DNA from: an uncultured Butyricicoccus sp.
Lineage (GTDB): Bacteria > Bacillota > Clostridia > Oscillospirales > Butyricicoccaceae
Assembly: GCA_900544475.1 (NCBI GenBank)
Contig: UQVU01000008.1
Location: 1 to 30,843, forward strand
Direction of reading: 5' to 3'
DNA length: 30,843 bases
The position numbers and the translations under genes were made by a program. How positions within the stretch are numbered: position 1 is the stretch's first letter; the number at the start of each line of letters is the position of its first letter. The notes beneath the pieces are model-generated. The model saw only the letters and a program-made list of their open reading frames with translations. It was not told the origin of the DNA and ran no database searches. Below are positions 3,093-25,655 of the stretch, piece by piece.

Positions 3093-3128
3093 TTGAGAGC
3101 TGCTTTTTGGCGGCTCTCAAATTTTTTT
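3093..3128 (+). terminator. Rho-independent terminator of the sigma/PrsW operon
   Basis: TTGAGAGC (3093-3100) pairs with GCTCTCAA (3113-3120) around a T-rich loop, followed by A and seven T residues (3121-3128). It separates the regulatory operon from the giant surface-protein operon, so the latter needs its own promoter. Confidence 0.85.
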
Positions 3129-3148
3129 GAAAAATTTTGCGTTTTGGG

Positions 3149-3180
3149 TGAGAGTTTTTTCGATTTTTTGTACCTATATA
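3149..3180 (+). promoter_or_regulatory. Possible ECF-type promoter for the giant surface-protein operon
   Basis: The only gap with room for a promoter before the 3236 start holds a TATATA at 3175-3180, but nothing like TTGACA at 16-18 bases upstream. Instead there is TGAGAG followed by a T tract (3149-3160) and TGTACC (3169-3174). This loosely recalls ECF promoters (GAAC-like -35, CGTA-like -10), though the spacing is shorter than the SigW consensus. The assignment is tentative and based mainly on the absence of a sigma-A -35 next to an ECF sigma gene. Confidence 0.35.
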
Positions 3181-3235
3181 AGTGAAAGGGTTTTTATCAC
3201 AGTTTCAGACAAACCGGAAAGGGGGTTCGAACAAT

Positions 3236-3589
3236 ATGTACGATACCGCAAGACGGGTCGCACTCGTCAAGCAGCGGGTGCGGGAAAACACCCGCCGGAG
3301 GCAGCGGCGCGGCATATATGGACTGAGCGGTGCGTGTATGCTGCTGTTCGCGGTGCTGATGCAGGCGGCAGGCACGGTCGTCGGGCCGGGGCAGACCGCC
3401 GCGTGTGGCGTGTTCGGCGCGATGCTGCTGCGGGAGGACGCGGGCGGCTATGTGCTGGTTGCTGTCGTCTCCTTTGCAGCGGCGGTGGTCATCACCGCAC
3501 TGTGCATTCGGCTCAGAAACAGAGAAAACCAGAAAAAAGACGGAACGGACAAGCCCGCCCGACACGAACAGGAGGAGAAAAGCCAATGA
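3236..3589 (+). CDS. Two-TM membrane protein related to the one at 1476-1838
   Basis: This 117-residue protein has a basic N-terminus (residues 1-26, with a RRRQRR run), helices at about 27-50 and 70-93, and a charged tail. Topology, size and the conserved stretch VVITALCIRLRNRENQKK match the protein at 1476-1838 (VCVTVLCFRLRQMSREDDQNK), so I infer a duplicated family. The ATG at 3236 follows GGAAAGGGGG (3216-3225); an in-frame start at 3182 lacks such a site. Its stop overlaps the start of the giant surface protein (ATGA at 3586-3589), so the two are translated together. It may be a second anti-sigma-like protein or a membrane partner for export of the giant protein. Function is not known. 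Confidence 0.75.
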   Translation: MYDTARRVALVKQRVRENTRRRQRRGIYGLSGACMLLFAVLMQAAGTVVGPGQTAACGVFGAMLLREDAGGYVLVAVVSFAAAVVITALCIRLRNRENQKKDGTDKPARHEQEEKSQ

Positions 3590-6500
3590 AAAAACGAATA
3601 CTTAGCATACTGCTCGTCTGCTGCATGGTGCTGACCATGCTGCCGACGACGGCGTTTGCAGCGCTGAGCGATTCGCTGGGCAACACACCCAGGGAAAATC
3701 AGGCGATTTTGGAGCAGCTCTCCGCCCTGACTGGCAGCAGCAGCGACCAGGTGCTTTCCATGCTGAACGCTTTGGGGCTGCTGGATGAAGACGGCAATTT
3801 CAAGGTGGATCAAACCATCACGCTGGACGGCCAGGTGTTGACACTGGCGGCTGTCATGGAGCTGCTGGAAAATCCCGCCACGGATCTCACCCGCATAGCC
3901 GACGTGGATGGGACTCCGGTGGCGCTGGGCGATTTGAAGACCATGATCCAAATCGAACAGGAGCTGCAGCGGATCAAGGACACCTATTTCTCCGGCAGGG
4001 AGTTTACCGGGGAAGCTCTGGAGAATCTCAACAGCCTGATGGAGCAGCTGGAGCTGCGGGGCATCAGCTTGCAGTATTCCGCCTCTGCCACAGCGCCCGA
4101 GGGCGTTGAGACGGTGGATATGAGCGGCATGATGAGCCTAACGCTGGGGACCGAAGCATACAACAACAAATGCAGCTCTGGGACTTTTACTGTATACGGC
4201 GGAAAACCGGTCGGCTTTTCCTACCGCATTCAAAAAGGCCAGCTCAGCGAGTATATCACCGATGTGGAGGTCTCGATAGGCGAGACAAGTGAGGTCGTCA
4301 AGCAAAGCGACGGGTCCTACAAGCTGACCTATAAGGTAGACGGCCCGAATTCCAGTTTAGGTGGTTGTCAAATCACTGTCAAGGTTACAACCAAAGGAGG
4401 GGCCATGGCCTGGCACGAGGGTTCTTTTTCCTATGGCGACCTGCTGGGGATGATTGAATTTTACGATGCGGAAAATCTGGTGTTCTATGACGGTGTCGGT
4501 TATGCCGACCACTGTCAGCTCAAGCTAAAAAAGACGGTTCCCGTCCCCACAATAAAAAAATCAATGACCGCGCCGAGCTATGTTGAAGAAGTCAAAAATA
4601 CAACCGTATTATATGATGATTTGTTTATTCCTTTGCTGACAGAAAGTTACACTGGCGGCAGTGCCAACAATTCGGACTTTGTTGCGCTAAGCAATACCAT
4701 CGGAATTCTGGAGGGTGCCCGCAACTTGGTGCTTCCCGACGGCTCCGCCCCATTTTATCAGCCATACCAAATCGACGCCAGCATCAAGTTTGACTGGAGT
4801 ACCGATGTAGCTGCCTATACTGGCCCTGCGCCGTATGGCAATTATAATTCTATAACCCCACAACCATATGCCCCGTTCTGTCTGACGGAGTACAAGCTCG
4901 ATGGAACAGCTCTGACGCTCAGCGGCGACAGAAAGAGAACGGAGGAATGTACGATTAACAAGGGCAGTACGGTCAGCATCTCCCTGCAGTCTACCACGAA
5001 AAACAGAGTGGATGAGAAGTACTATCTGCCCTTCGAACTGTATCTGAAGAATGTAAATAATAATATCCATAATTCCACCACCACCGCCAAGACCAGCGGC
5101 GTCCACGCCAAGCTGGTGGACACGGACAAGCCCACCATTCAAAGCGTCACGGCCCCGCCGGGAACCTATGCCAGCGGACAGCACGTGCCCATCACAGTTA
5201 CCTTTAACGAGTTCGTGGATCTTAGAAACGCCAGCGTGACCATCAATGGCAAAGTGTATACCGCCGCTGAGCTTTCCATGAACAAATACGGCGTCACGGC
5301 AATGCTCTGGTACCCGGTGCAGGATGCGGATGCCACCACGGTCACCGTCACTGGTATGACCGGCGTGGAAGATGTTTTCGGCCATGAGCTGGATACCGCA
5401 CTCTATCAAAGCGACCCGATTACCGGAGTTGAGCTGAAGAGCGTCTTGATGCGCAACGCCCCCACCGCACTGACCGCCGACTACGCCAACGGCAAGGCAT
5501 CGTTCACGATGCAGGCCAACATGGAGCAGGCCTACAAGACCGTATACAGCAATTATCACACCCCGGCAGGCACAGAGCCGAAGGAAGCCCCCTTCCGCCT
5601 CGAGCTGAGGTACAACTCCGAGGAGGAACCGATCCATCTGCAGGTCTATCTGGATACAGAGACCGGAGACTTCACCGTCAGCGACTACGAAATCGCACCA
5701 CCCTCTGATTTCGGCCGCACCTATACGGTGACGCTGCAGGCCAACGAGGGCACGAAAGACGCTCCTAAGTGGGTGAATGTTCTTCCCCTGACCCGGCAGT
5801 TCACGGTGCAAAAGAGAGTTCCCGTGAGCACGGTGACCATCGTCCCGGAAGCGAATGACGCGGACTATACGATTTCCCGCGCCGATTCCACCCGCCCCAC
5901 GCTTAAGGCAGAGGTTTTGGGGGCAGGCGGTGAGCAGGCCAGCTACACCACCGGTAAATGGAGCAGCAGTGACCCGCTCATTGCCACCATCGACGAGGAT
6001 ACCGGCGTTGTTGCTACCACAGGAGCCAAAGTGGGAACCGTCATCTTTACCTTTACGGCGGACAACGGGACTGTGGACACTGACAATGATGATGTGTCGG
6101 GCCAGTCACAGCCCTATACCGTGACGGCAGGCGATTCCCTGGCACTGGTGATTCCCGGCGGCGCGTCCATCGTGACGCGGGTAAATCAGCCCGCCACCGT
6201 GCTGTGGAGCTCCAACGCCGCGCAGATGGCACCGAACAAAGAGTTCCATTACAGGATCGACCTGTATGAGGGCAACTACAAGAATGAGGCGGCGCTGAGC
6301 GGCCGCAATCCCGTTGCGACTTATACCGCCGGCAAGGATAAAAACAGCGTGCAGATCGAGGAGAATGTGCTCTCCAAGCTCTCCAACGGCAATACCCCTG
6401 CCTACACGGTATTGGTCTCCATGCCGCACCCCAATGCCGGGGGTGAGGACGTCCGCCTGTCAGCACTTGCCTGGATCATCGTGCAGGCACCGCCTGCCGC

Positions 6501-9500
6501 AGCCAAGCTGACACCGCCCCAGAGCATTTACCTCAAGGATACCGACGGCACCGTCAATATCGACTGGTCGGTGGAAAACGCCACTGCCGGCACCCCTCAA
6601 CAGCCCACGCTGACCATTACCCGGGTCACAGAGGACAACTCCACCCAAGAGGTGGCCCGTGAGCGCCTATCCGGCACCTCCGGAAGTTACTCCCTGCCAT
6701 TACGGAGTGTGAAAGACGGCAATCTAAAGGACACCTATCAAGTGGTTTTGAGCGTGGAGAACCCTGGTGAGGAATCTCCCAGCACCGACTCCTTCCCCCT
6801 GTATGTCTACGATGCCGACGCACTGAAGGTGCAGGACGACGAAGGACACACGATTTCTGCGCTGACCATGGACAATACCTCCAAGGTCAGCGGCACCCTG
6901 CCCACCGATACAGCTAAAATTTTGCAGCTGCGCCAGGAGCTGGGGCTGATCGAGTACATAGGCATCAACTATGACGAGTACGGATGGAACTCCTTTAAGG
7001 ACGGGATCCAGTGGCTCTCCAGCAACAACAATGCCATTTCCGTCAACTACAAGCAGGGCGGACTGTATGAGGACATCAGAAACTTCTCCTTTAAGTCCTA
7101 CCTTCCCGAAACCAAAATGGCGCTGTCCGGCTTGGCCAACGGCAGCGCAACCGTCACGGCTACCCATGCCGCCACGGGCATGAGCGCCGCCGTACAGGTG
7201 ACAGCGGAGACGCTGCAAAATAAGTTCTATCTCTTCCAGCTGACGCCTGCGGCGAAAACTACGCTGCAATACACCGACGGTAAAGGCGCGCCCAAAACGG
7301 TCACGACCAACCGTGATGGCGTGCTGGCGCTTTACGAACCCAACGGAATCGCCAGTGAGGTGTCTCTGCGGTCCGGCTCCGGCGCGGATATTTATCTGGG
7401 CACCATCTATAAAGAAAATCTGCGTTCCGGCGAGCGGGATGCCACAAAGCTGCAGCTTTATCCCTTGAATACCTTCAGCCTTCGGCGAGTCGCCCGGGCA
7501 TCTGTGACGCTCATCACACCGGGCGGCGATCCGCTGGCGAACGAGACGGTGACCGTTCGCGGCGGCGTTTATAAAAACGGAGGCTACTGCGAGACAGCTC
7601 GGCTGGGCTCCAGGGCAGGAGCACTTGTCAGCGGCATCACCGGCGACACCTATACCACGGATGAGGCGGGAAATATAACCGTCTATCTGGATTCCACCCA
7701 GTTCTGGTCGGAGGAAAAGGGCGAGAGCAACACCACGGCGCTTTCCGCTCTGGATCAGCTGGAGTACATTCTGGAGATCAGCGAAATTGACGGCGACAAT
7801 TACTATCCGCTGCTGCTGACCGTCAACGGCAAGCTGAGCGTGGACGATGTAATGCGCACCGCAGAGGGCGTTGTCTCTCTGGAGAGCGTGCCGCCGGGGG
7901 AGAAAAACAAACCCTTCATTGTGGCGCAAAGCGTTGATTACGGTCTTGCCAACGGTCAGAAGGTGGATGTCCGCAGCTCGACCGGGAAGATCGGCCCTAA
8001 CAGCAGCTTTAAAACAGCAACCCTGCACACCACCATGTTCCTCTGGGGCGAGGATATTGCCAAGGCGCAGAATTACAGTCTCAAGCTGGCGGACGAATAC
8101 GGTATTCTTCCTGCCGCCCAGAGCAGCAGTACCACGCAGTATCCCTTCTCATCCATCCCCGTAGCGGAAAACGATCTGACCCTCACCGAGGCCACCATGA
8201 CCACCTCTGGATGGATCGCCGACGGCAAGGATGTGGGTATGAAAACGCAGCTGAGCCTGAACGGCAGCCTGCTGCAGGAGAAAATAATGCCCTTCCGGGT
8301 CGTTGATCTGACCCGAGTGCCCAAGGTGACAGAGGATGAGCGCGTCACCGGTATTCTGGCGACGATGGGAGAATCCAGTGGAGTGAATCAAGTCGACTTT
8401 GGCGGAGTGGGCGATAGCAACATTCTCAAGGTGCTGACCGGACGGCTGGATGATCTGAGCGGTCCGGTGAACAGTTCCGTGTTCAAAATGATCATCACCC
8501 CCAGCGAAGATCCCTCCGTGTTCCGTGCCATGATTTGGGCCGGGTACAATACGCTGGAGATGGAGGACATGGACTATTCCGAGGACGGCGTGGCGTTGGG
8601 TGCGAATGTGCTGACGCAGAACCTGGAAGTGGGCGTGCCCGGGACCGGGGACCTGAGCCAGATGGCCCAGGGCACCTATGATCCCAAGGGGGACTACAAA
8701 ACCAACTCCATAGCCGACAATGTCACCAGCACGGATCTCAACTTGCAGTTGGAGGGCTTTTACGAAGCGGAAATCCGCTATAACACCGAAAAAAAGGAGT
8801 GGGAGGTTTTCACCGTAGGCGGCGGATTTACCGCCGGCGTTGGTGTGGGCTTCTCCTTCAGCGTGAACGCCATGGCTGGCCCCGTGCCGTTGACAGCAAC
8901 CTTTGAGCTGGGTGGTGCCATTCAGCTGGATTTCCGTACCGCAGTGCGCTACGGCCAGCAGGGCGAGGGTACAGAGCTTGCCTGGAGCGATCCCACGGCC
9001 ACGGCAGTGAATGACTTTTTGACCACGCTGCGTATCAACGCCTATGTCCACGCGTTTGGCGGCATTGGCTTTGACTATTCGGTCGTGGCGCTGAAGATCG
9101 GCCTATTCGGCAATTTGGATGTGGACAGTCAGAATAAGTTCCTCTCCCGCACCTATCTTGCCGACAAGTCAAAGCGCCAGATCAACGGTCAGGCCCTGGG
9201 GATTCAAAGCGAAGTGGGAATCAAATTTGTGGCCACCTTCCTGTTTATCTCCTACGAGGCGGTGATCGCCTCCGGAACCCTTGGAGCCACCAGGACTTTT
9301 AATGACTGGGACACAATTGACAACTACTGGAATAGCGCCACCAGTGGGCTGAGCCTTGCCTCGCTGCGGATGGCGGCGGCCCAGAGCGGAATGCATGTGG
9401 CTTCTGGCAGTGCAACGCTCCAAAGCCGGGACTATCTGGAGCAATATGCCCGTACCTGGGGCCAGCCCCAGCAGCGGATGATGCTGTTCTCTCTGAACTC

Positions 9501-12500
9501 CACCAGTGGGCTGGAAAACATCCAGACCAATGCCAATCCCACATCCTATCCACAGCTCAGCGATGACGGGAAGGTATTGGCCTACATCAACGACGGCGAC
9601 AGCAGCAGTATTTACGACAGCCGGGCACATTTCTCCACCCTCAATAGCGGCGTCTATTCTCCCTCCAGCCAAATTGCCGATCCCACAGGGTTCTCCGGCT
9701 ACGGCGACACGAGCGTTTCTCTGTCCGGCACTGACCGCTTCGCGGCGGCGGCTTGGGTTCGCATGGGCACCGACCTGCCGGGTAAAAATGCCGGTGATCC
9801 CGTGACATTGGAAGAGCAAAACCTGCTGATGAACAGCACGGAGATCGTAGTGTCCGTCTATAATGGAACAAACTGGACTTCCACCCGCCTAACCAAGGAC
9901 GGCACGCCGGATCTGGCCCCGGCCACGGCAGTGGGCGGCGACGACAAGGCCATCGTGTTCTGGCGCAGCGTCTACACCCCCGATCCCGTGAGCGCTTCAG
10001 GCAGCAACAACCTGCTGAACTTCACGACCAGAGATTGCATCATGTACAGTTGCTATGACAGCAGTAACGACCGCTGGAGCGATGCCAAAATGCTTTATAA
10101 CGGTGCTACCGGCAGCGTGAAGGCGTTGCAGGCGGCCATGCTGCCCGACGGAACCGCTATGGCGGTTTACTCGCTGGACCGCAGCGGAACCGGAGATACC
10201 TCCGTCTACGAGATCGCCTATTGTACCGTGGCTGCTGACGGAACGCCCGGTACAGCCATGCTGGCGACCTGTGACAGCAATCTTGATGAAAACCCCCAGG
10301 TCGTTGCAGCCAACTTTGGCATCGGGGATGACCGATTTGTCATCGGTTGGCATAGTGTCCGAGACGGCAGCAGCGATATCCAGCTGTTGGCTGTGGACGG
10401 CGGAGGCACCATGTCCAACAGCTTCCCCGGCTCTCTGTCTGCCCTGACCAGCAGCGGCAACGCCGTCGTGGGCGGAGACTTCCGCTTCGCTTCCCTCAGT
10501 GGGGATCATCGCAGCCTCAATGATCTTACCATCGTCTGGAATGAGACTGTCAATGACGCCAACGGCGCGGTAGATCACGGCATTTTGAAGGCGGCCAAGC
10601 TGCGCTATGCCGCAAATACCTACACGCTCTCCGCACCATTGGAACTGGCAGAGCTGCCGGATCGCACGCTGGCTGACCACTTTGATGCCTATGTCAGCGG
10701 CAGCAATCAGGTGCAGGCTGCCATTCAGGCCACCCGGTATGACGATGAAAAACCGGAGGTAATCGGCGGCGTGACCGTTCCGGGTGAGGAAACGATCCTC
10801 TATACCGCTACCTCTAATTTTATCACCGATGCGGTGGCCGTGGAACAGATCGGTGTGGATTATGCAACGCTGGCGCTGAACAGCCTGACACCCATTCGCT
10901 TTACCATCCGCAACACCGGGCTGAACGATGTGACAAACCTAACGGTCAAGCTTGGCAGCGGGGAAACCGCCACCCTTACGAAAAAACTGCTGCCCAATGA
11001 AAGCACCACCCTTACCGTCTGGCACCATGTGAAGGACCGCGTGACCGACCCGAGCTATACCATCACCGCCGCCGGCGGCATCAACGAAAACGGCACAGTG
11101 TATCTGGATTATCCCGACATTGGCATCTCGCAAATGGAAGTGATTGCGGAGAGTGCCGGCAAGCGCACGGTGCGCATGACCCTCTATAATTCCTCTGCCG
11201 CCACGCTGGCCGGCGGAAAGAACCGCGAGGTGAAGCTTGCGTTCTATGCGGATGATCTGCATACCAAATCTGCAGTGGTAGCCTGCGCCACAAACGGCGT
11301 ACAGGTTGGTGGTATTAGTGGTAATGAAATCACCATTTCCGGAGACGATGCCCTCGCCCGCATCGATCAGGGAAGCTTTACACTGGACCTGACCTATGAT
11401 CTGGGCAAGTATATGAACTCCATTGGCAAAAACGAGATCCCCAATGTGGGTACCTATCTGTACGCCGAGGCGTGGGCGGAAGGCAAGATCGGTGGAACGG
11501 GAAGCAATCAGCGCCTGCCGGAGTATGACGGCAGTGACAGCGAGGCCAGCGTCCATATGACCGGCGCACTGGCCCGCACAGGAGAGAAGCTAACGATGGA
11601 TGTGGCACAGGGGAACGACGGCAACGGTCACAGCACCGCCGCCATTACCCTGCGCAACAACTCCCTGCGGTCTCAGAATAGCGCAGAGCTGGTGGCCACG
11701 CTGCTGGATGCTGCCGGGACCGTTCTGGAAACGCAAAAGACCGGTATTGGCGGTGCCATCTCCGGGGAAACCTTCCGGACGGAAACCGTCACCTTCTCCC
11801 AGCCCGGCGCCCGCGTAGTGGTGCGAGCCACAGTGCCCGGTGATGACCTTCTGACCTTTGAAGGTCTGGCAGTGGGGCTCGGCGATTTTACCGCCAACGG
11901 AACGAACTATACCTATACGCTGCAAAATGATAGCGGAGCAACATCTACGCTAGTCACAGCGGTGTCTAGAAACGGCGAGCCCGTGAGCATCAACGGACAG
12001 GCTCTGTCCACCGGCGGCAGCGCAACCGTTGCCATCCCCAACAGCGGCACAACCGACATTGTCGTGGGAATCGGTGCTAAAACCTACACGCTGACGATTC
12101 TGCGCAATAGCGGCACAGGCGGCAATGAAGGCGGTGGCGGCGGAGCGACCAGCTACACGCTGACCTTCGATACCAACGGCGGCAGCGCCATTTCCAAGGT
12201 ATCTAAAACCAGCGGCACAACTGTTGATCTGACCGGCTATACGCCTACTCGTGACGGCTATACCTTCGATGGTTGGTACAGCAATAGCGCCCTGACTGTC
12301 AAAGTCACTTCTATCAAGCTGACTTCCAATACCACCATTTACGCAAAGTGGACGACAAAATCGGATATGTCTTTCACCGATGTGGCAGACAAAGCATATT
12401 ACAGAGATGCCGTTGAGTGGGCTGTTGAGAACGGCATCACGAAAGGCACCACCGTAACGACCTTCAGCCCTAACGCTACCTGCACCAGAGCGCAGGCCGT

Positions 12501-12897
12501 GACCTTCCTGTGGCGTGCCGCTGGCAGTCCTGAACCCGAAACCCGCGCCATGCCGTTTACCGACATCCCCGTGGGCAGCTATTATTACGACGCTGTGCTG
12601 TGGGCGGTGGAGAATGGCATCACCAAGGGCACCAGCGACACCACGTTCAGCCCCAACATGACCTGCACCCGCGCCCAGATCGTCGCGTTCCTGTGGCGTT
12701 CCGAGAAGTCCCCGGCAGCGGGTACAGCCAATCCCTTTGCCGATGTGAAGTCCACCGCCTACTATGCTGATGCGGTTCTGTGGGCGGCCAAGGCGGACAT
12801 CACCAAGGGAACCACCAACACCACATTCAGCCCCGGCGCGGATTGCACCAGAGCGCAGATCGTGACCTTCCTGTATCGCGCCTATCAGGGCAAATAA
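3586..12897 (+). CDS. Giant secreted SLH-domain surface protein (3103 residues)
   Basis: A classic signal peptide (residues 1-25, KKR then a hydrophobic core, cut after AFA) leads a helical segment (about 35-150) and long beta-rich regions. Visible parts are an Ig-like unit near 511-600; a BIG2-like unit at about 749-825 (WSSSDPLIATIDEDTGVVATTG); a glycine-rich strand region at about 1725-1912; propeller-like repeats from about 1987 (YPQLSDDGKVLAYI); a CARDB-like unit at about 2420-2510 (PIRFTIRNTGLNDVTNLTVKL); a GGGGG linker near 2850; and a Listeria-Bacteroides repeat at about 2856-2925 (TFDTNGG...GYTFDGWYSN). Three SLH domains close it, near 2926, 2989 and 3049 (FTDV...YYDAVLWAVENGITKGT...FSPN..CTRAQ). 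SLH domains bind secondary cell-wall polymer, so it should sit on the cell surface. There is no LPXTG and no catalytic motif I recognise; adhesion is a reasonable guess. The ATG follows GGAGGAG and overlaps the two-TM gene. Confidence 0.93.
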   Translation: MKKRILSILLVCCMVLTMLPTTAFAALSDSLGNTPRENQAILEQLSALTGSSSDQVLSMLNALGLLDEDGNFKVDQTITLDGQVLTLAAVMELLENPATDLTRIADVDGTPVALGDLKTMIQIEQELQRIKDTYFSGREFTGEALENLNSLMEQLELRGISLQYSASATAPEGVETVDMSGMMSLTLGTEAYNNKCSSGTFTVYGGKPVGFSYRIQKGQLSEYITDVEVSIGETSEVVKQSDGSYKLTYKVDGPNSSLGGCQITVKVTTKGGAMAWHEGSFSYGDLLGMIEFYDAENLVFYDGVGYADHCQLKLKKTVPVPTIKKSMTAPSYVEEVKNTTVLYDDLFIPLLTESYTGGSANNSDFVALSNTIGILEGARNLVLPDGSAPFYQPYQIDASIKFDWSTDVAAYTGPAPYGNYNSITPQPYAPFCLTEYKLDGTALTLSGDRKRTEECTINKGSTVSISLQSTTKNRVDEKYYLPFELYLKNVNNNIHNSTTTAKTSGVHAKLVDTDKPTIQSVTAPPGTYASGQHVPITVTFNEFVDLRNASVTINGKVYTAAELSMNKYGVTAMLWYPVQDADATTVTVTGMTGVEDVFGHELDTALYQSDPITGVELKSVLMRNAPTALTADYANGKASFTMQANMEQAYKTVYSNYHTPAGTEPKEAPFRLELRYNSEEEPIHLQVYLDTETGDFTVSDYEIAPPSDFGRTYTVTLQANEGTKDAPKWVNVLPLTRQFTVQKRVPVSTVTIVPEANDADYTISRADSTRPTLKAEVLGAGGEQASYTTGKWSSSDPLIATIDEDTGVVATTGAKVGTVIFTFTADNGTVDTDNDDVSGQSQPYTVTAGDSLALVIPGGASIVTRVNQPATVLWSSNAAQMAPNKEFHYRIDLYEGNYKNEAALSGRNPVATYTAGKDKNSVQIEENVLSKLSNGNTPAYTVLVSMPHPNAGGEDVRLSALAWIIVQAPPAAAKLTPPQSIYLKDTDGTVNIDWSVENATAGTPQQPTLTITRVTEDNSTQEVARERLSGTSGSYSLPLRSVKDGNLKDTYQVVLSVENPGEESPSTDSFPLYVYDADALKVQDDEGHTISALTMDNTSKVSGTLPTDTAKILQLRQELGLIEYIGINYDEYGWNSFKDGIQWLSSNNNAISVNYKQGGLYEDIRNFSFKSYLPETKMALSGLANGSATVTATHAATGMSAAVQVTAETLQNKFYLFQLTPAAKTTLQYTDGKGAPKTVTTNRDGVLALYEPNGIASEVSLRSGSGADIYLGTIYKENLRSGERDATKLQLYPLNTFSLRRVARASVTLITPGGDPLANETVTVRGGVYKNGGYCETARLGSRAGALVSGITGDTYTTDEAGNITVYLDSTQFWSEEKGESNTTALSALDQLEYILEISEIDGDNYYPLLLTVNGKLSVDDVMRTAEGVVSLESVPPGEKNKPFIVAQSVDYGLANGQKVDVRSSTGKIGPNSSFKTATLHTTMFLWGEDIAKAQNYSLKLADEYGILPAAQSSSTTQYPFSSIPVAENDLTLTEATMTTSGWIADGKDVGMKTQLSLNGSLLQEKIMPFRVVDLTRVPKVTEDERVTGILATMGESSGVNQVDFGGVGDSNILKVLTGRLDDLSGPVNSSVFKMIITPSEDPSVFRAMIWAGYNTLEMEDMDYSEDGVALGANVLTQNLEVGVPGTGDLSQMAQGTYDPKGDYKTNSIADNVTSTDLNLQLEGFYEAEIRYNTEKKEWEVFTVGGGFTAGVGVGFSFSVNAMAGPVPLTATFELGGAIQLDFRTAVRYGQQGEGTELAWSDPTATAVNDFLTTLRINAYVHAFGGIGFDYSVVALKIGLFGNLDVDSQNKFLSRTYLADKSKRQINGQALGIQSEVGIKFVATFLFISYEAVIASGTLGATRTFNDWDTIDNYWNSATSGLSLASLRMAAAQSGMHVASGSATLQSRDYLEQYARTWGQPQQRMMLFSLNSTSGLENIQTNANPTSYPQLSDDGKVLAYINDGDSSSIYDSRAHFSTLNSGVYSPSSQIADPTGFSGYGDTSVSLSGTDRFAAAAWVRMGTDLPGKNAGDPVTLEEQNLLMNSTEIVVSVYNGTNWTSTRLTKDGTPDLAPATAVGGDDKAIVFWRSVYTPDPVSASGSNNLLNFTTRDCIMYSCYDSSNDRWSDAKMLYNGATGSVKALQAAMLPDGTAMAVYSLDRSGTGDTSVYEIAYCTVAADGTPGTAMLATCDSNLDENPQVVAANFGIGDDRFVIGWHSVRDGSSDIQLLAVDGGGTMSNSFPGSLSALTSSGNAVVGGDFRFASLSGDHRSLNDLTIVWNETVNDANGAVDHGILKAAKLRYAANTYTLSAPLELAELPDRTLADHFDAYVSGSNQVQAAIQATRYDDEKPEVIGGVTVPGEETILYTATSNFITDAVAVEQIGVDYATLALNSLTPIRFTIRNTGLNDVTNLTVKLGSGETATLTKKLLPNESTTLTVWHHVKDRVTDPSYTITAAGGINENGTVYLDYPDIGISQMEVIAESAGKRTVRMTLYNSSAATLAGGKNREVKLAFYADDLHTKSAVVACATNGVQVGGISGNEITISGDDALARIDQGSFTLDLTYDLGKYMNSIGKNEIPNVGTYLYAEAWAEGKIGGTGSNQRLPEYDGSDSEASVHMTGALARTGEKLTMDVAQGNDGNGHSTAAITLRNNSLRSQNSAELVATLLDAAGTVLETQKTGIGGAISGETFRTETVTFSQPGARVVVRATVPGDDLLTFEGLAVGLGDFTANGTNYTYTLQNDSGATSTLVTAVSRNGEPVSINGQALSTGGSATVAIPNSGTTDIVVGIGAKTYTLTILRNSGTGGNEGGGGGATSYTLTFDTNGGSAISKVSKTSGTTVDLTGYTPTRDGYTFDGWYSNSALTVKVTSIKLTSNTTIYAKWTTKSDMSFTDVADKAYYRDAVEWAVENGITKGTTVTTFSPNATCTRAQAVTFLWRAAGSPEPETRAMPFTDIPVGSYYYDAVLWAVENGITKGTSDTTFSPNMTCTRAQIVAFLWRSEKSPAAGTANPFADVKSTAYYADAVLWAAKADITKGTTNTTFSPGADCTRAQIVTFLYRAYQGK

Positions 12898-14962: not shown

Positions 14963-14991
14963 TTTACATCCGCCCGGGGAAATGCTATAAT
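14963..14991 (+). promoter_or_regulatory. Sigma-A promoter of gdpP-rplI
   Basis: TTTACA (14963-14968) and a perfect TATAAT (14986-14991) are separated by 17 bases, and a TGC precedes the -10 (extended -10). The gdpP start at 15030 lies 38 bases downstream. Confidence 0.8.
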
Positions 14992-15029
14992 CATGCTGTA
15001 TATTTGCGTCCAAAAAGGGGGGCGGGAAT

Positions 15030-17033
15030 TTGAAAAAGAAAATCCAGACGGCGCTTCGACCCGGCCGCGCGGTGTTTTATGTGCTGTTTTTCGCATTTGC
15101 GGCCGTCGGTCTGTATTTTTCCAGACCGTACGGACTGGTCGGCATGGCGACCGTCGCAGTTCTGCGCCTTGTCGCGATCCGCAGCGACGCGGAGCGGCGG
15201 CAGCAGGTGCACGAGCTGATGGAGAACATCGAGATCGAGGGCGGCGAGATCCGTCCGGCAGTCACGAAATCTCCGCTTCCGACCGTCGTGGCGCTCGCAA
15301 CGACCGGACAGATCATCTGGGCGAACGAGGCGTTCGCAGACATGACCGGCCACTTTGCGCACGCGCCGCATATGCGTCTGAGCGAGCTTGCGCCGACGTT
15401 TGAAACCCGCTGGCTCATCGAGGGCAAGACCGCCTTTCCGGGCGAGCTGCGCATGGGGCGCGGCGTCTATCACGTATTCGGCAGCATGGTGCAGTCGGGC
15501 GCGGGACAGATGATGATGCTGCATTTTATTGATTGCACCGAATTCGTGCATCTGCGCGATGACGCTTCGACCCGCCGGCCGGCCATCGCGGTCATCGCCA
15601 TCGACAACTACGAGGAGCTGGTCAAGAACACGACCGACTCGGAAAAGTCCAACATCCTCGCCGGCATCGACAAGCGCCTGTCCACCTGGGTCAAGGACTC
15701 GAGCGCCGTCATGCGCAAGTACGACCGCGACAAGTATATCTTCATCATCGAGAACGCCGAGCTGGACAAGCTCGCGGCAAGAAAGTTCTCGGTTCTTCAG
15801 GAAGTGCGCGATATTCAGAACCATGAGGGCGTTATTGCGACGCTCTCCATCGGCATCGGCCGCGATGGCGAGACACTCGCGGAGAGCTATAAGTTCGCGG
15901 GACTCGCCATCGACATGGCGCTCTCGCGCGGCGGTGATCAGGCGGTCATCAAGAACCGCTACAACTTCGAGTTCTTCGGCGGCCTGAGCGAGGAAGTCGA
16001 AAAGCGCACCAAGGTCAAGAGCCGCGTGGTCGCGAACGCGCTCAGCCAGCTGATCCGCGACTCCTCTCAGGTGCTCGTCATGGGCCACAAGAACAGCGAC
16101 ATGGATGCCATCGGCGCGGCGGCCGGCATGGTCTGCGCGGCGCGCGTCAAGAACAAGCCGGTGCACATCGTGGTTGACCGGCAGCACACCATGGCGACCG
16201 AGCTCATCGACCGCCTCGAAACCCAGAGCGAGTACAAGGGCGTGTTCGTCAGCGCCGAGGACGCCATGCTCATGTGCGACTTCAACACGCTTCTCATCGT
16301 CGTGGACGTCAACCGTCCGGGCTACGTTGAGAGCGAGGCGCTGCTCCAGTCCATCAACAAAATCGCGGTCATCGACCACCACCGCCGTGCGGCGGACTAT
16401 ATCGAAAACGCTGTCGTCAGCCTGCACGAGCCGTATGCGTCCTCCGCGTCCGAGCTTGTCAGCGAGCTGCTTCAGTACCTCGTTCCGACGAGCAGCATCC
16501 TGACCGCCGAGGCGGAGGCGATGCTCGCGGGCGTCTACCTCGATACCAAGGGATTTTCTACGCGCACCGGCGTGCGCACGTTTGAAGCGGCGGCCTACCT
16601 CCGTCGAGCGGGTGCGGAGTCGAGCGATGTCAAGCGCCTGTTCCAGTCGAGCTTCGACCAGTACATGGAGCGCCAGAAAATCATTTCCTCTGCGCGAAAC
16701 TGCGGCCACGGCGTGATTTTCGCCATCACCGGCGAGCCGGTGGACCGTGTCGCGGCGGCGCAGGCGGCGGACGAGCTGCTTTCCATCATCGGCACCTCGG
16801 CGTCGGTCGTGGCGTTCCGCAGCGGTGAGAACGACATGGCGGTTTCCGCCCGTGCGGCGGGTCAGGTCAACGTGCAGCTGCTCATGGAGCGGCTGGGCGG
16901 CGGCGGCAACCATTCCGCAGCGGGTGCGCAGCTGAAAAACACCACCCCGGAGGAGGCGGACCGGCTGATCACCGAGGCCATCCGAGGCTATCTCGAGGAC
17001 CAGCGCGCGGAAAAGCAGAACGAGCATCCGTAA
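15030..17033 (+). CDS. gdpP: GdpP-type cyclic-di-AMP phosphodiesterase
   Basis: This 667-residue membrane protein splits cyclic-di-AMP to pApA and so controls osmotic and cell-wall balance. Two N-terminal helices lie at about 14-50. A PAS-like domain (about 80-190) and a degenerate GGDEF domain (about 200-325; RKYDRDKYIFIIE, GGDEF signature absent) follow, as is usual for GdpP. The DHH phosphoesterase domain carries GHKNSDMDAIG (352-362), VVDVNRP, VIDHHRR (D449, H450, H451) and GVYLDTKGFSTRTG. A DHHA1 domain ends with GGGGNHSAAGAQL. It starts at TTG (15030), with a G-rich Shine-Dalgarno (AAAAGGGGGGCGGG) just ahead. The gdpP-rplI-dnaB order is conserved across Firmicutes. Confidence 0.96.
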   Translation: MKKKIQTALRPGRAVFYVLFFAFAAVGLYFSRPYGLVGMATVAVLRLVAIRSDAERRQQVHELMENIEIEGGEIRPAVTKSPLPTVVALATTGQIIWANEAFADMTGHFAHAPHMRLSELAPTFETRWLIEGKTAFPGELRMGRGVYHVFGSMVQSGAGQMMMLHFIDCTEFVHLRDDASTRRPAIAVIAIDNYEELVKNTTDSEKSNILAGIDKRLSTWVKDSSAVMRKYDRDKYIFIIENAELDKLAARKFSVLQEVRDIQNHEGVIATLSIGIGRDGETLAESYKFAGLAIDMALSRGGDQAVIKNRYNFEFFGGLSEEVEKRTKVKSRVVANALSQLIRDSSQVLVMGHKNSDMDAIGAAAGMVCAARVKNKPVHIVVDRQHTMATELIDRLETQSEYKGVFVSAEDAMLMCDFNTLLIVVDVNRPGYVESEALLQSINKIAVIDHHRRAADYIENAVVSLHEPYASSASELVSELLQYLVPTSSILTAEAEAMLAGVYLDTKGFSTRTGVRTFEAAAYLRRAGAESSDVKRLFQSSFDQYMERQKIISSARNCGHGVIFAITGEPVDRVAAAQAADELLSIIGTSASVVAFRSGENDMAVSARAAGQVNVQLLMERLGGGGNHSAAGAQLKNTTPEEADRLITEAIRGYLEDQRAEKQNEHP

Positions 17034-19251: not shown

Positions 19252-20584
19252 CGGCCTTGTGCGGACGGCGGCCGACACCATCCGCCGGTACGATATGCTG
19301 AGACCGGGGGAGGCCGTTCTTGCGGCGCTCTCGGGCGGCGCGGATTCGGTGTCGCTCCTGCTCGTGCTGCAAAGCCTCGGCTACGAGGTCCGCGCGTTTC
19401 ACTTAAACCACTGTCTGCGCGGCGCGGAGTCCGACCGGGACGAGGCGTTCTGCCGGGCGCTGTGCGCAAAGCGGGGTGTTCCGCTGACCGTCGTGCGCGT
19501 GGATATTGCCGCGCTCTCGCAGGGAAAGGCGGTCGAGGAGACCGCGCGGCGCGAGCGCTACGCACAGCTGGAAAAAGCGGCGGACGGCTGCAAAATCGCG
19601 ACCGCCCACACGGCGGACGACAACCTCGAAACCGTGCTGTTCCATCTGGTGCGCGGCAGCGGCGCGAGGGGCCTTGCCGGCATCCCGCCCGTGCGGGGCA
19701 ATATCATCCGGCCGCTTCTGAACGCGGAGCGGCGCGAAATCGAGGCGTTCCTGCGCGAAAACGGGCAGGATTACGTCACCGACAGCTCAAATCTCAGCGA
19801 CGACTACACGCGGAACCGCCTGCGGCACAGCGTGCTGCCCGTGCTGCGTGAGATAAACCCCGCGGCGGCGCAGTCGGCGCTCCGCTTAGGGCAGCAGCTG
19901 CGGCAGGACGAGCAGACCCTCGGCGCACTCGCGGCGGACTGCCTGCACGCGGCGGCGCAGCCGGACGGCTCATATGACACGCGGCCGTTTCTCTTGTGCC
20001 GCGAGGCGGTGCGCGGGCGTGCGCTGCGGAAGGCGGCGGAAAACGCCGGAATGCCGCTGCGCGACCTTGCGCAGACCCATATCGAGGCGCTCGGGCGTCT
20101 GCTCGAAAGTGCAGACCCGTCCGCGCAGCTCGACCTGCCGCACGGCTTTACGGCCCGACGCGAGTACGAGCGCTTCCGTATTGAAAAGCGGGAGAGCCTC
20201 CCGGCCGCCGAAGCGATGGCGCTTGCGGTGCCGTTTGACGGCGTGTGGGCAGGCGGAAACAGAGTCAAACTCAGAAAATTAGAAAAATCCGAAGTTTTTT
20301 ACAAAACAGTCAATACTTTTTGCGCAGATTGTGGTACAATAGATTTTGCATCGCTGTGTGTTCGTGCGCGGCAGACGGGAGACCGGCTGCGCCTGACCGA
20401 AAAGGGAGGGAGCCGCACGCTCAAAAAGCTGATGATCGACCGGAAAATCCCGGCGGCGGAGCGGAACGGGCTCGCCGTCATTGCGGATAAAAACGGCGTC
20501 ATCGCGGTGCAGAATATCGGCATGGATCTCAGTCGAGCGCCGAAAAACGGCGAAAGACTGGAAATAAAAATTGAGAGGAACTGA
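19241..20584 (+). CDS. tilS: tRNA(Ile)-lysidine synthase
   Basis: This 447-residue protein has the PP-loop motif SGGADS at 31-36, then LNHCLRG and TAHTADDNLETVLFHLVRGSG, which mark TilS. It attaches lysine to C34 of the CAU-anticodon tRNA-Ile, changing it to read AUA. The C-terminal TilS domain is visible as RQTGDRL...GGSRTLKKLMIDRKIP. It starts inside the end of dnaB, so it is translated with it. The tilS-hpt-ftsH order is widely conserved in Firmicutes. An AT-rich stretch near 20,262-20,345 differs from the rest of the gene and may carry a promoter for the genes after it. Confidence 0.96.
   Translation: MRNNGLVRTAADTIRRYDMLRPGEAVLAALSGGADSVSLLLVLQSLGYEVRAFHLNHCLRGAESDRDEAFCRALCAKRGVPLTVVRVDIAALSQGKAVEETARRERYAQLEKAADGCKIATAHTADDNLETVLFHLVRGSGARGLAGIPPVRGNIIRPLLNAERREIEAFLRENGQDYVTDSSNLSDDYTRNRLRHSVLPVLREINPAAAQSALRLGQQLRQDEQTLGALAADCLHAAAQPDGSYDTRPFLLCREAVRGRALRKAAENAGMPLRDLAQTHIEALGRLLESADPSAQLDLPHGFTARREYERFRIEKRESLPAAEAMALAVPFDGVWAGGNRVKLRKLEKSEVFYKTVNTFCADCGTIDFASLCVRARQTGDRLRLTEKGGSRTLKKLMIDRKIPAAERNGLAVIADKNGVIAVQNIGMDLSRAPKNGERLEIKIERN
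20332..20340 (+). promoter_or_regulatory. Possible internal promoter for hpt-ftsH
   Basis: Inside tilS, an AT-rich island holds TGG directly ahead of TACAAT (20335-20340), an extended -10. No clear -35 is present at 16-18 bases. It lies about 250 bases upstream of hpt, so it could give ftsH independent expression. Confidence is low because it overlaps coding sequence. Confidence 0.35.
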
Positions 20585-20588
20585 CGAA

Positions 20589-21143
20589 ATGGCTTATAAC
20601 ATGCGAGACGATATTAAGGAAGTATATTTCACCGAAGAGCAGCTCCGGGACAAGGTCCGCGAACTCGGCGCACGCATCACGGAGGACTACCGCGGCAAGA
20701 ACCCGCTGATCGTCAGTGTCCTCAAGGGCTCGTACATCTTCATGGCCGACCTGACCCGCGCGATCGACACCCCGTGCAACGTGGATTTCATGGTCGTGTC
20801 CAGCTACGGCAACGGCACCAAGACCACCGGCGAGGTTCAGATCATCAAGGACATCGCGCAGCCGATCGACGGCCGCGACCTGCTGATCGTGGAGGACATC
20901 CTCGATTCGGGCGTTACTCTGCATTACCTCATGCAGATCCTTGCGGCACGCGGCGCGAACTCCATCCGCCTGTGCACGCTCCTGTCCAAGCCGGAGCGCC
21001 GCAAGATCGATGTAAACGTAGACTACCTCGGCTTCGAAATCCCGGATGAGTTCGTAGTCGGCTATGGTCTGGACTACGCGGAAAAGTACCGCAATCTGCC
21101 GTACATCGGCATTCTCAAGCCGCATGTATACGGCGGCGAATAA
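20589..21143 (+). CDS. hpt: Hypoxanthine phosphoribosyltransferase
   Basis: This 184-residue purine-salvage enzyme makes IMP (and GMP) from hypoxanthine (or guanine) and PRPP. The PRPP loop LLIVEDILDSGVTL is at about 98-111. The N-terminal VSVLKGSYIFMADL and the C-terminal DYLGFEIPDEFVVGYGLDY, which contacts the base, are both present. The ATG at 20589 follows AGAGGAA; an in-frame start at 20571 overlaps the end of tilS and has no such site. The gene begins 4 bases after the tilS stop. Confidence 0.96.
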   Translation: MAYNMRDDIKEVYFTEEQLRDKVRELGARITEDYRGKNPLIVSVLKGSYIFMADLTRAIDTPCNVDFMVVSSYGNGTKTTGEVQIIKDIAQPIDGRDLLIVEDILDSGVTLHYLMQILAARGANSIRLCTLLSKPERRKIDVNVDYLGFEIPDEFVVGYGLDYAEKYRNLPYIGILKPHVYGGE

Positions 21144-21176
21144 TTTTTTCCCAACGGAAAGGGGCGTTAAACCAAT

Positions 21177-23117
21177 TTGAAAGGCAAAATGAAGGGCTTC
21201 GGCCTTTACCTGCTCATACTGGTGTGCCTGCTGGCCGGCGTAAGCTACGTCGTCAGCCAGACGCAGAAAACCGAGTCGATCTCCTACTCGGATGTGTACC
21301 AGTATTTCGAACAGGGCGACGTGGACCGCTACACGCTGGAGGGCGGCACGCTGACCATGCACCTCAAGAACGAGAACCGCGCGGTCAGCTATGAGATCGG
21401 CGACTATACCTCGGTCTGGTGGTCGCAGCTCGGCGAGGTCATCGACCAGCAGATGAAGGACGGCACGCTGACCAAGGTAGACTACATCACCACAACGATT
21501 CCGTGGTGGGCGCAGTTCCTGCCGTATCTCATCCTCGTGGTGCTGATCGGCGCGTTCTGGTATTTCATGATGAACAAGCAGTCCGGCGGCGGCGCAGGCC
21601 CGATGCAGTTCGGCAAGGCGCGTGCGAAGCTGGCGCAGGACGGCAAGAACAAGGTGACGTTCAACGATGTCGCGGGCGCGGACGAGGAAAAGGCCGAGCT
21701 TCAGGAAATCGTTGAGTTCCTGAAAAATCCGCAGAAGTTCGTGCAGATCGGCGCACGTATCCCCAAGGGCGTGCTGCTCGTCGGCCCTCCGGGCACCGGT
21801 AAAACGCTGATCGCCAAGGCGGTCGCAGGCGAGGCGGGCGTTCCGTTCCTGTCCATCTCCGGCTCGGACTTCGTTGAGCTGTATGTCGGCGTCGGCGCGT
21901 CCCGCGTGCGCGACCTGTTCGAGCAGGCCAAGAAGAACGCACCGGCCATCGTGTTCATCGACGAGATTGACGCGGTCGGCCGTCAGCGCGGCGCAGGCCT
22001 CGGCGGCGGTCACGACGAGCGCGAGCAGACGCTCAACCAGCTGCTCGTTGAAATGGACGGCTTCGGCGCGAACGAGGGCGTTATCGTCATCGCCGCGACC
22101 AACCGCAAGGATATTCTGGATAACGCGCTGCTTCGTCCGGGCCGCTTCGACCGTCAGGTCTATGTCGGCGCACCGGATGTCAAGGGCCGCGAGGCGATCC
22201 TCAAGGTTCATGCACGCAACAAGCAGTTCGACCCGGATGTCAAGTTCTCCGACATCGCCAAGACGACCGCCGGCTTTACCGGCGCAGACCTCGAGAATCT
22301 GCTCAATGAGGCGGCGCTTCTTGCGGCACGCCGCAACAAGAAGCTGATCTCGCAGGAGGAGATCGAGGAGTCGCTGCTCAAGGTCGTCATGGGCGTGGAA
22401 AAGAAGAGCCACATCATCACCGAGCACGACAAGCGCCTGACCGCTTACCATGAGGCCGGTCACGCGATCTGCTTCGAGGTGCTGCCGACGCAGGACCCGG
22501 TACACCACGTTACCATCATCCCGCGCTCGTCCGGCGCAGGCGGCTTCACCATGCCGCTGCCCGAGGAGGACCAGGCGTACCGCACGAAGAAGTATATGGA
22601 GGAATATATCGTCGTCTGCCTTGGCGGCCGCGTAGCCGAAAAGCTGACGATGGAGGATATTTCGACCGGCGCTTACGGCGACATCAAGCAGGCCACCCAG
22701 ATGGCGCGTGCGATGGTCACGAGCTACGGCATGAGCGACAAGATCGGCCCCATCGACTACGGTTCCGAGGGCGGCGAGATCTTCCTCGGCCGCGACTTCG
22801 CCGCAGGCAAGGGCTACTCCGAGGTCAAGGCGGCTGAGATCGACGATGAAATTCACCGCATCATCGAAACCGCTTATCACCAGTGCGAGGCGCTTCTGAC
22901 CGAGCACATGGACGCGATGACCCGCGTCGCGGAATACCTCATCCGCAACGAAACCATGGACGGCGAAACGTTCAAGAAGGTTTTCAACGGTGAGGAAGTT
23001 CCCGATAAGGTGGTCGGCGCGGATCTCGTAAGCGAGCTTCAGAAGGACCTGAACGAAAAGCTCGGCGAGCCGGCAAAGGCTGAGCCGCAGCAGAGTGAAC
23101 AGTCCGAAAACGAGTAA
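21177..23117 (+). CDS. ftsH: ATP-dependent zinc metalloprotease FtsH
   Basis: This 646-residue membrane AAA+ protease has helices at about 6-26 and 112-131, bracketing the small extracytoplasmic domain. The AAA domain follows with Walker A GPPGTGKT (203-210), Walker [16 protein letters not shown] and the second region of homology [21 protein letters not shown]. The peptidase zinc site HEAGH is at 425-429. It degrades misassembled membrane proteins and some regulators. It starts at TTG (21177), with GGAAAGGGG about 12 bases ahead; the in-frame ATG at 21189 would be too far from that site. The acidic, glutamine-rich tail is typical. A strong terminator follows. Confidence 0.97.
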
Positions 23118-24446: not shown

Positions 24447-24920
24447 TCAGTCGCCGAAGAACTGGTCGTGGATGGCCTTGACTGCCTTCTCGCTGTCCTC
24501 CTCGTTGATGAGGACGGAGATCTTGATCTCGGAGGTGGAGATCATGCGGATGTTGATGCCGGCGCCTGCCAGAGCCTCGAACATCTTGGATGCAACGCCT
24601 GCGGCGGAAGCCATGCCTGCGCCGACGATGGAAACCTTAGCGACCTTGGTGTTGATGGAAACGTCCTCGTAGTCGAGCATTTCCTTTGCATCGCGCAGGA
24701 TCTTCTCAACGCGCTCTGCGTCGTCCTGACGGATGGTGAAGGAGATGGACTTCTTGTTGTCGCGGCCGACGGACTGGAGAATGATGTCGATGTTGACGTT
24801 GTGCTTTGCCATCAGGGAGAATACCTTGAAAGCGGTACCCGGGGTATCGTTCAGGTTGATGATGGCGACACGCGCGCAGTTATTATCACGGGCTACACCC
24901 GAAACGTTCAGTTTTTCCAT
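24447..24920 (-). CDS. lysC: Internal start giving an aspartate kinase beta subunit (ACT domains only)
   Basis: Inside lysC, AAGGAGGG (24935-24928) lies seven bases ahead of an in-frame ATG at 24920 (residue 246, MEKLNVSGVARDNN). This is a stronger site than most gene starts in the window. In B. subtilis LysC, an internal start at the same residue number makes a beta subunit of 163 residues that pairs with the alpha chain; here the product would be 157 residues holding both ACT domains. Synthesis is inferred, not shown. Confidence 0.7.
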   Translation of the reverse strand: MEKLNVSGVARDNNCARVAIINLNDTPGTAFKVFSLMAKHNVNIDIILQSVGRDNKKSISFTIRQDDAERVEKILRDAKEMLDYEDVSINTKVAKVSIVGAGMASAAGVASKMFEALAGAGINIRMISTSEIKISVLINEEDSEKAVKAIHDQFFGD

Positions 24921-25655
24921 GTTAGAACCCTCCTTGACTTTCGTACCCGGATTGCGGGTAAAGCTCGAAACGACCTCGAGATCGACATTGTACTTCTTTG
25001 CCATTTCAACCGAGCGGTTGTGCAGGACCTGTGCGCCGAGCGACGCAAGCTCGAGCATTTCATCATACGTGATGGCGTCCAGCTTACGCGCATTCTTGAC
25101 GATGCGCGGGTCGGCGGTGTATACGCCGTCAACGTCGGTGTAGATCTCGGTGGTCGCCGTATCATTAAAAAACGCGATGGCAACTGCGGTGGTGTCCGAG
25201 CCGCCGCGGCCGAGGGTAGTCACGTCGCCCATCTTGTTGATGCCCTGGAAACCGGCAACGATAACGATGCGGCCGTTGTCCAGCTCTGCCTTGAGGCGGT
25301 CGCCGGAGATGCGCTTGATGCGTGCGTCCGAGTAGTTGCTGTTGGTCTCCATGCCGATCTGCCAGCCGGTCAGGGAAACGACCGGGAAGCCGAGCTTCTG
25401 GATAGCCATGGCGAGCAGGGACATCGAGATCATCTCACCGGTGTTGAGCAGCACATCCATCTCGCGTCTGGACGGACGCTCGTTCAGCTCGGCGGCCTTT
25501 TCGATGAGGTCGTCGGTGGTGTCGCCCTGTGCGGAAACGACGACAACGACCTGGTTGCCGGCCTTAGCGGTGCTGGTGACGATGTCAGCGACATTCTTCA
25601 GTCGCTCGGTATTAGCGACCGAGGTGCCGCCGAACTTTTGCACAATAAGACTCAT
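24447..25655 (-). CDS. lysC: Aspartate kinase (alpha subunit; contains adapter-derived residues)
   Basis: This 402-residue enzyme phosphorylates aspartate, the first step to lysine/DAP, threonine and methionine. The kinase domain has KFGGTS (7-12), FQGIN, TLGRGGSDTTAVAIA and EIYTDVDGVYTADPR. Two ACT domains (about 260-402) bind the feedback inhibitor. Length and internal start resemble the B. subtilis aspartokinase II type. Residues 162-169 (FFNDTATT) are not biological: they are a translation of Illumina P5 adapter plus a homopolymer, and the true residues there are unknown (families usually have an AALxADxC-like stretch). The rest reads normally and the frame is kept. It is the last gene of the operon, 94 bases after thrB. 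Confidence 0.95.
   Translation of the reverse strand: MSLIVQKFGGTSVANTERLKNVADIVTSTAKAGNQVVVVVSAQGDTTDDLIEKAAELNERPSRREMDVLLNTGEMISMSLLAMAIQKLGFPVVSLTGWQIGMETNSNYSDARIKRISGDRLKAELDNGRIVIVAGFQGINKMGDVTTLGRGGSDTTAVAIAFFNDTATTEIYTDVDGVYTADPRIVKNARKLDAITYDEMLELASLGAQVLHNRSVEMAKKYNVDLEVVSSFTRNPGTKVKEGSNMEKLNVSGVARDNNCARVAIINLNDTPGTAFKVFSLMAKHNVNIDIILQSVGRDNKKSISFTIRQDDAERVEKILRDAKEMLDYEDVSINTKVAKVSIVGAGMASAAGVASKMFEALAGAGINIRMISTSEIKISVLINEEDSEKAVKAIHDQFFGD
25138..25172 (-). other. Illumina P5 adapter sequence embedded in lysC (assembly artefact)
   Basis: On the minus strand, 25166-25138 is identical over all 29 bases to the Illumina P5 flow-cell oligo (begins AATGATACGGCGACCACC, ends GAGATCTACAC). 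Six A residues (plus strand, 25167-25172) follow, as happens when a read runs past the fragment end. The last 11 bases of P5 also encode the conserved EIYT of aspartokinase, which explains the capture. Confidence 0.95.

Follow-up and report, generated by a model that had tools for sequence, protein, structure and literature searches.

An Illumina primer sequence within a Butyricicoccus lysC gene, most likely overlaid on the true sequence during sequencing

Introduction

The 30,843-nucleotide stretch of DNA analysed here (the window) contains a lysC gene that retains its reading frame and length and at the same time spells out, within its coding sequence, the Illumina P5 flow-cell oligonucleotide. 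The question raised by this locus is how a sequencing primer can stand inside an otherwise ordinary gene. An earlier note on this DNA had recognised an adapter artefact and explained it by mispriming of P5 during library PCR. Here we compare the locus with its relatives, with other occurrences of P5 and P7 in public contigs and with other LysC proteins. It is near certain that positions 25148-25172 are a sequencing scar and not genomic DNA, and the bases recorded there are most likely those of an Illumina primer, written over the native ones while the DNA was being sequenced.

The lysC gene and the embedded primer

The gene product is a monofunctional aspartate kinase, LysC, whose whole-protein score exceeds the curated cut-off (NCBIfam profile search: 551.5 bits against NF005155, cut-off 346; 442.7 against TIGR00656, cut-off 402.25) and which aligns with solved PDB aspartokinases across nearly its full length. 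According to profile searches the genes upstream of lysC are thrB and a homoserine dehydrogenase; the neighbourhood is an ordinary amino-acid gene group. The features discussed below are collected in Table 1.

Table 1. Features of the lysC locus, in window coordinates.
Feature	Position	Strand	Basis
lysC, monofunctional aspartate kinase, 402 aa	24447..25655	-	open frame, NCBIfam profiles, PDB aspartokinases
Illumina P5 oligonucleotide sequence, 29/29 bases	25138..25166	-	exact match; 0/100 shuffles
Six-T run on the 5' side of P5 (plus strand: AAAAAA), putative remnant of a surface-primer spacer	25167..25172	-	
Stretch unlike relatives, residues 162-170, FFNDTATTE	25148..25172	-	nucleotide and protein comparison
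AGATCTACAC, lysC bases identical to the P5 3' end, presumed priming footprint	25138..25147	-	10-base match in L176
91-aa frame reading MIRRPPRST, companion adapter peptide, taken as spurious	24908..25183	-	open-frame list

The observations on which the earlier note was built are borne out: the 29 bases of P5 are matched exactly on the minus strand, six A adjoin them on the plus strand, and FFNDTATT (residues 162-169) is read in the lysC frame and MIRRPPRST in another minus-strand frame. The two strings are known translated adapter peptides, arising from two frames of P5; here they are embedded in the gene of a full-length enzyme. The exact match is the only one in the window, and a chance match was rejected, since none of 100 shuffles matched P5 even with up to three mismatches. 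All 18 of the 12-mer matches to the Illumina adapter sequences tested fall at the lysC scar, where the sole window occurrence of the last eight P5 bases (ATCTACAC) is also found. The nearer end of the window is 5677 bases away from P5, and what comes next to the oligonucleotide is lysC sequence, with neither an index nor a read-1 primer site, so the arrangement typical of contig-end adapter contamination (a position at the end, then an index or read-1 site) is absent. Because of the scar, this LysC lacks the native residues that precede IYTDVDG in its relatives, FFNDTATTE standing in place of ATLGADLCQ-like residues.

Native sequence expected from relatives

The closest proteins among those listed (P0121-P0127, from one contig each and 2-9 residues shorter than the window LysC) are 98.5-99.5% identical to it outside residues 162-169. 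They read ATLGADLCQIYT, or ATLGSDLCQIYT in P0123; that is, ATLGADLCQ, or ATLGSDLCQ in P0123, before IYTDVDG. At the DNA level the nearest relative compared is L176 (genome G474; 93% protein identity), whose lysC, like those of L177, L178 and L188, has the same 1209 nt as the window gene in ungapped comparison. Against L176, 1043 of 1184 bases are identical outside 25148-25172 and only 6 of 25 inside; against each of the four relatives no other 25-nt stretch of lysC agrees less well than the scar, which is the worst or shares that place. Comparison with relatives, of the kind that the earlier note had called for among sister strains, upholds its central claim of an adapter artefact, as well as its description of normal aspartokinase flanks and preserved length.

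Its boundaries require some adjustment. The residue preceding IYT in the closest relatives is Q, so that E170 of the window LysC is probably also adapter-derived and the native codon was most likely CAG, as in L176. The footprint of the primer therefore comprises ten bases and the altered stretch begins at 25148: of the 11 bases encoding EIYT in the earlier note, the last ten stand, and its altered stretch of 25149-25172 is correct as to site and one base too short. The native site in L176 ends in AGATCTACAC, identical at 10 of 10 positions to the last ten bases of P5. This sequence occurs just twice in the 2.8-Mb G474 genome, one copy lying inside lysC; sites for priming of this kind are thus very scarce, and the scar coincides with one of them.

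Replacement in register at other loci

No gap is present at the scar in any of seven scars tested, in seven genes, from which it follows that they are overlays and not insertions. DNA-level comparisons were made for an aminotransferase gene (L029; four relatives of the seven fetched), a uracil-permease-like gene (L098; three of four) and a Xer-type recombinase gene (L092; three of nine). RmlA from a viral contig (L250) was compared as protein with one solved structure, and Ddl (L174) position by position with seven relatives, these being the seven of 11 that passed a motif filter. For a P7 scar (L347/L476) an unscarred counterpart, L477, is available from another IMG/VR data set: 1274 of 1277 aligned gene bases agree outside the 34-base scar and 17 inside it, and the alignment is free of gaps for 60 bases around it. 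The two are not identical throughout, L477 having 99 bases absent from L476 at 363 bases from the P7 start and diverging from it about 270 bases past that start. The lysC scar of the window combines an exact P5 with a T-run, unchanged length, native flanks and a native site matching the primer 3' end, as would be expected of the in-register surface-primer scar proposed below.

Besides the window and L174, the register comparison covered five of 16 internal scars (L029, L092, L098, L250 and L347), the other eleven being L067, L078, L088, L244, L253, L268, L307, L355, L390, L415 and L450. Downstream of the oligonucleotide, L078 continues into TruSeq sequence, L268 into index-like bases and L450 into Nextera-like bases. 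A search for phage relatives of the P5 scars in L244, L250, L253 and L307 returned no record covering 80% of any query: in the hits listed, L307 and L244 matched at the adapter itself, L253 gave one short recombinase match and L250 gave partial homologues that stop short of the scar.

P5 and P7 in public contigs and the origin of the T-run

A scan for P5 of contigs from one genome per species (genome_contigs) gave at least 120 stretches, with at least 124 exact matches in the stretches listed. Of the 124, 118 lie close to where the fetched stretch ends, with TruSeq coming after P5 in 70, Nextera in 36 and other sequence in 12, while five are internal without adapter and one is internal with TruSeq. 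Two deposited phage records, KX965989 (112-154) and KY883634 (131981-132025), are 95-100% identical to the P5 query region close to the record end, and annotated records of this kind probably carry adapter.

The run of T immediately 5' of the oligonucleotide was measured at 237 distinct P5 and 135 distinct P7 sites among the matches listed, the P7 scan including viral contigs. Exactly ten T precede P5 in 22 of 100 runs that reach an end and in 33 of 137 others; for P7 the figures are 30 of 75 and 13 of 60, ten being the commonest length in all four groups of matches listed. Most of these sites represent plain read-through, and they bear on the origin of the spacer, not on the overlay. As the T-run is common to P5 and P7 despite their different sequences, it is taken to come from the surface primers. 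Passages of PMC11123353 print a 10-T spacer on immobilised primers of the P5/P7 type. The six A, which the earlier note had correctly located and left as an unexplained poly-A tail, thus fit the complement of such a spacer. The internal scars among the matches listed number 16 and include both P5 and P7 kinds, with exactly ten T in seven of them.

The window has six T, where the mode over the public contigs is ten among the matches listed. A smaller group of listed P5 and P7 sites has six or seven T. Spacers may be shorter on newer flow cells, and the instrument used may affect the length of the spacer or the calls made in dark cycles.

Recurrence in LysC proteins and base-by-base mixtures

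The lysC scar recurs: besides the protein of the window, 25 of the LysC proteins listed show it in pure or mixed form, 17 of them with FFNDTATTE exactly and eight with variants. They were found in two listings, each the best 120 of 7993 scored proteins, one aimed at the scar region; the scarred share in the latter is not a rate, because that search selects for the scar. DTATTEIYT is present in 22 of the best 120 proteins from the scar-aimed search, at the LysC register in 21. The other, P0029, is a short aspartokinase in which the P5 peptide does not coincide with the EIYT of LysC but lies elsewhere in the gene. Of the 240 proteins in both listings, a filter for register retained 234: 208 were native-like, 24 were scars or mixtures, and two (P0107 and P0128), regarded as natural variation or an indel, were left out of the count. 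The 25 also include P0131 (VSHDAETSE), dropped by a motif filter and read as a mixture by eye; they contain the near pairs P0009/P0010 and P0011/P0021, and the independent events may be fewer. Alanine is kept before FF in 13 of the 17 exact scars, and these must therefore contain fewer than nine T. Among 59 lysC stretches from genomes that were read at the DNA level, none was scarred.

Some scars look like mixtures of native and P5 sequence, base by base. In Ddl of L174, 38 of 39 positions across spacer and P5 correspond either to the P5 or spacer base or to the commonest base of the relatives, and native bases are seen at three separate places within P5. In six LysC variants (P0164, P0023, P0024, P0025, P0015 and P0017) each residue of the scar is consistent with a codon that blends native with P5 bases, FVNEAEVSE of P0025 being one example. 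The test, which explains six of seven variants fully, is lenient, a random residue being explainable with a chance of 0.06-0.62 depending on position, and for five of those six the nearest natives are only 60-74% identical. P0164 alone has a close native: it reads SSHDTAPTE where P0238, 97.8% identical, reads ASLGADLCQ.

One metagenome-derived genome, G005, contains one exact and four degenerate P5 copies (L171-L174 and L072), and in three of these cases a contig end is no more than 12 bases away. The record for L072 is titled uncultured Leucobacter sp.

Origin of the scar

We think it quite probable that a surface primer, mispriming during cluster growth, wrote the scar over the native lysC signal. 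The surface primer, 5'-T spacer-P5-3', would base-pair via its 3'-terminal AGATCTACAC with the corresponding lysC codons of an insert and be extended, giving a shorter strand which still bears both end sequences and could amplify within the same cluster. In read 2 the full-length and shorter strands would be read in step and would agree up to IYT. Beyond that point the shorter strand would be read as complementary P5 and, after that, complementary spacer, with the stronger signal being called at each cycle. Once the shorter strand ended at the surface only native signal would be left, and the read would return to native sequence with no bases gained or lost. Scarred reads of this kind, native on both sides, could be assembled. 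The paired-end scheme would predict P5 scars in read 2 only and P7 scars in read 1 only.

This mispriming in the cluster is favoured because it would explain spacer, register and mixtures together; priming of P5 by its 3' end would account for the location of the scar. A partial parallel is provided by PMC3163567, in passages of which merged clusters give mixed signals, the base called resembling one of the molecules more closely and quality being low at certain positions. There too, two sequence populations are merged in one cluster; the mixture, however, comes from neighbouring clusters, and 'mispriming' refers to mixed sequencing primers. Those passages do not describe a surface primer priming inside an insert. 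Several observations run against the surface-primer overlay: the six T of the window in place of ten, the P5 of L027 with no T-run at all and the T-runs of 11-15, which are commoner among the matches listed than native T would give. The first scar residue of P0021, one base near the spacer in L029 and one base in L174 match neither source, and L088 holds both native and scarred versions.

Mispriming in library PCR, as the earlier note had it, would have the P5 primer priming at lysC and reads from the other end running through P5 into poly-A. To this has to be added that assembly or consensus lays such an end over the native sequence without a gap. It draws on the same footprint argument, that is the AGATCTACAC match in L176 and its rarity in G474, and a column consensus could likewise produce base mixtures. 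It also finds a counterpart in L088:3500-3700, where native sequence is followed by five N and then by six T, P5 and the same native sequence once more; such joining of a dead-end contig by a scaffolder probably happens too, as a second route to scars. Against this, the poly-A would be the last thing in reads from library-PCR products, but all 7/7 scars return to native sequence in register, so that an extra overlay step is needed. PCR primers are not known to carry a T spacer, which the flow cell would therefore have to supply under either account. Moreover, a molecule with P5 but lacking the read-1 primer site should give no read-1 signal and be filtered out. Priming by the P5 3' end is thus kept from the earlier proposal, whereas library PCR by itself leaves both the native return in register and the apparent mixtures unexplained; we consider it an unlikely source of the scar.

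Ordinary read-through of short inserts into the adapter, assembled into the contig, is the commonest setting of P5, accounting for the 106 of 124 listed matches that lie near an end before TruSeq or Nextera, and contamination at contig ends is described in PMC11536531. It is contradicted by the sequence downstream of P5: the match lies thousands of bases inside, lysC comes next with no index or read-1 site, and bases have been replaced, not added. As the origin of this scar read-through is very improbable. A true genomic change in the strain would agree with the open frame and normal flanks, but would have to reproduce a synthetic oligonucleotide at 29/29 bases, and the same nine residues recur amid different flanks in 17 other listed LysC proteins. 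Since the P7 scar of L347/L476 in addition has its close unscarred counterpart in L477, we give a genomic origin practically no credence.

Returning to the surface-primer overlay, it seems to us reasonably likely that these scars make up a distinct class of systematic Illumina error, in register and free of indels, that consists of the spacer with P5 or P7 and has as its hot spots, across unrelated species, motif codons matching a primer end. We propose the in-register surface-primer scar as a working class. On the same joint claim, and with the same reasonable likelihood, EIYT/QIYT of LysC and TTEIYT of Xer-type recombinases would be recurrent motifs of false variation. For the recombinases (L092 and its relatives L162-L170), the motif TTEIYTHV is encoded in some species by bases closely resembling the 3' part of P5, and it is a likely further hot spot.

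Relation to known artefacts and consequences

As reported in parts of PMC11536531, Illumina adapter letters are found inside deposited assemblies and are widespread in public databases. There, a 12-base TruSeq adapter was tested, found concentrated at contig ends and dealt with by trimming the ends. In the window, by contrast, a full P5 occupies part of a gene, has taken the place of native bases in register and gives way to native sequence afterwards; trimming of ends would therefore miss it. A search of open-licence PMC literature found neither the FFNDTATT nor the MIRRPPRST string, the single match being to another peptide, FPTRRSSD. The same literature yielded no description of in-register primer scars, although such descriptions may exist elsewhere.

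The scars are of moderate importance for data quality and of no biological interest. They keep frame and length, could pass for plausible variants of a protein and would not be removed when contig ends are trimmed; mixed scars such as SSHDTAPTE are hardly recognisable as adapter. If the surface-primer class is real, it passes indel, frame and contig-end checks alike. Screening assemblies and protein sets for in-register P5 and P7, together with their mixtures, would clean the sequences on which protein models and family alignments draw.

Other features of the window

Frames of 678 aa (14991-17027, minus strand) and 792 aa (20529-22907, minus strand) gave no Pfam match at 1e-5, and each is overlapped by a long opposite-strand frame. 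A 3256-aa open frame at 3127-12897 on the plus strand contains three S-layer homology stretches and, near the C-terminus, a Listeria-Bacteroides repeat; its product is probably a very large surface protein.
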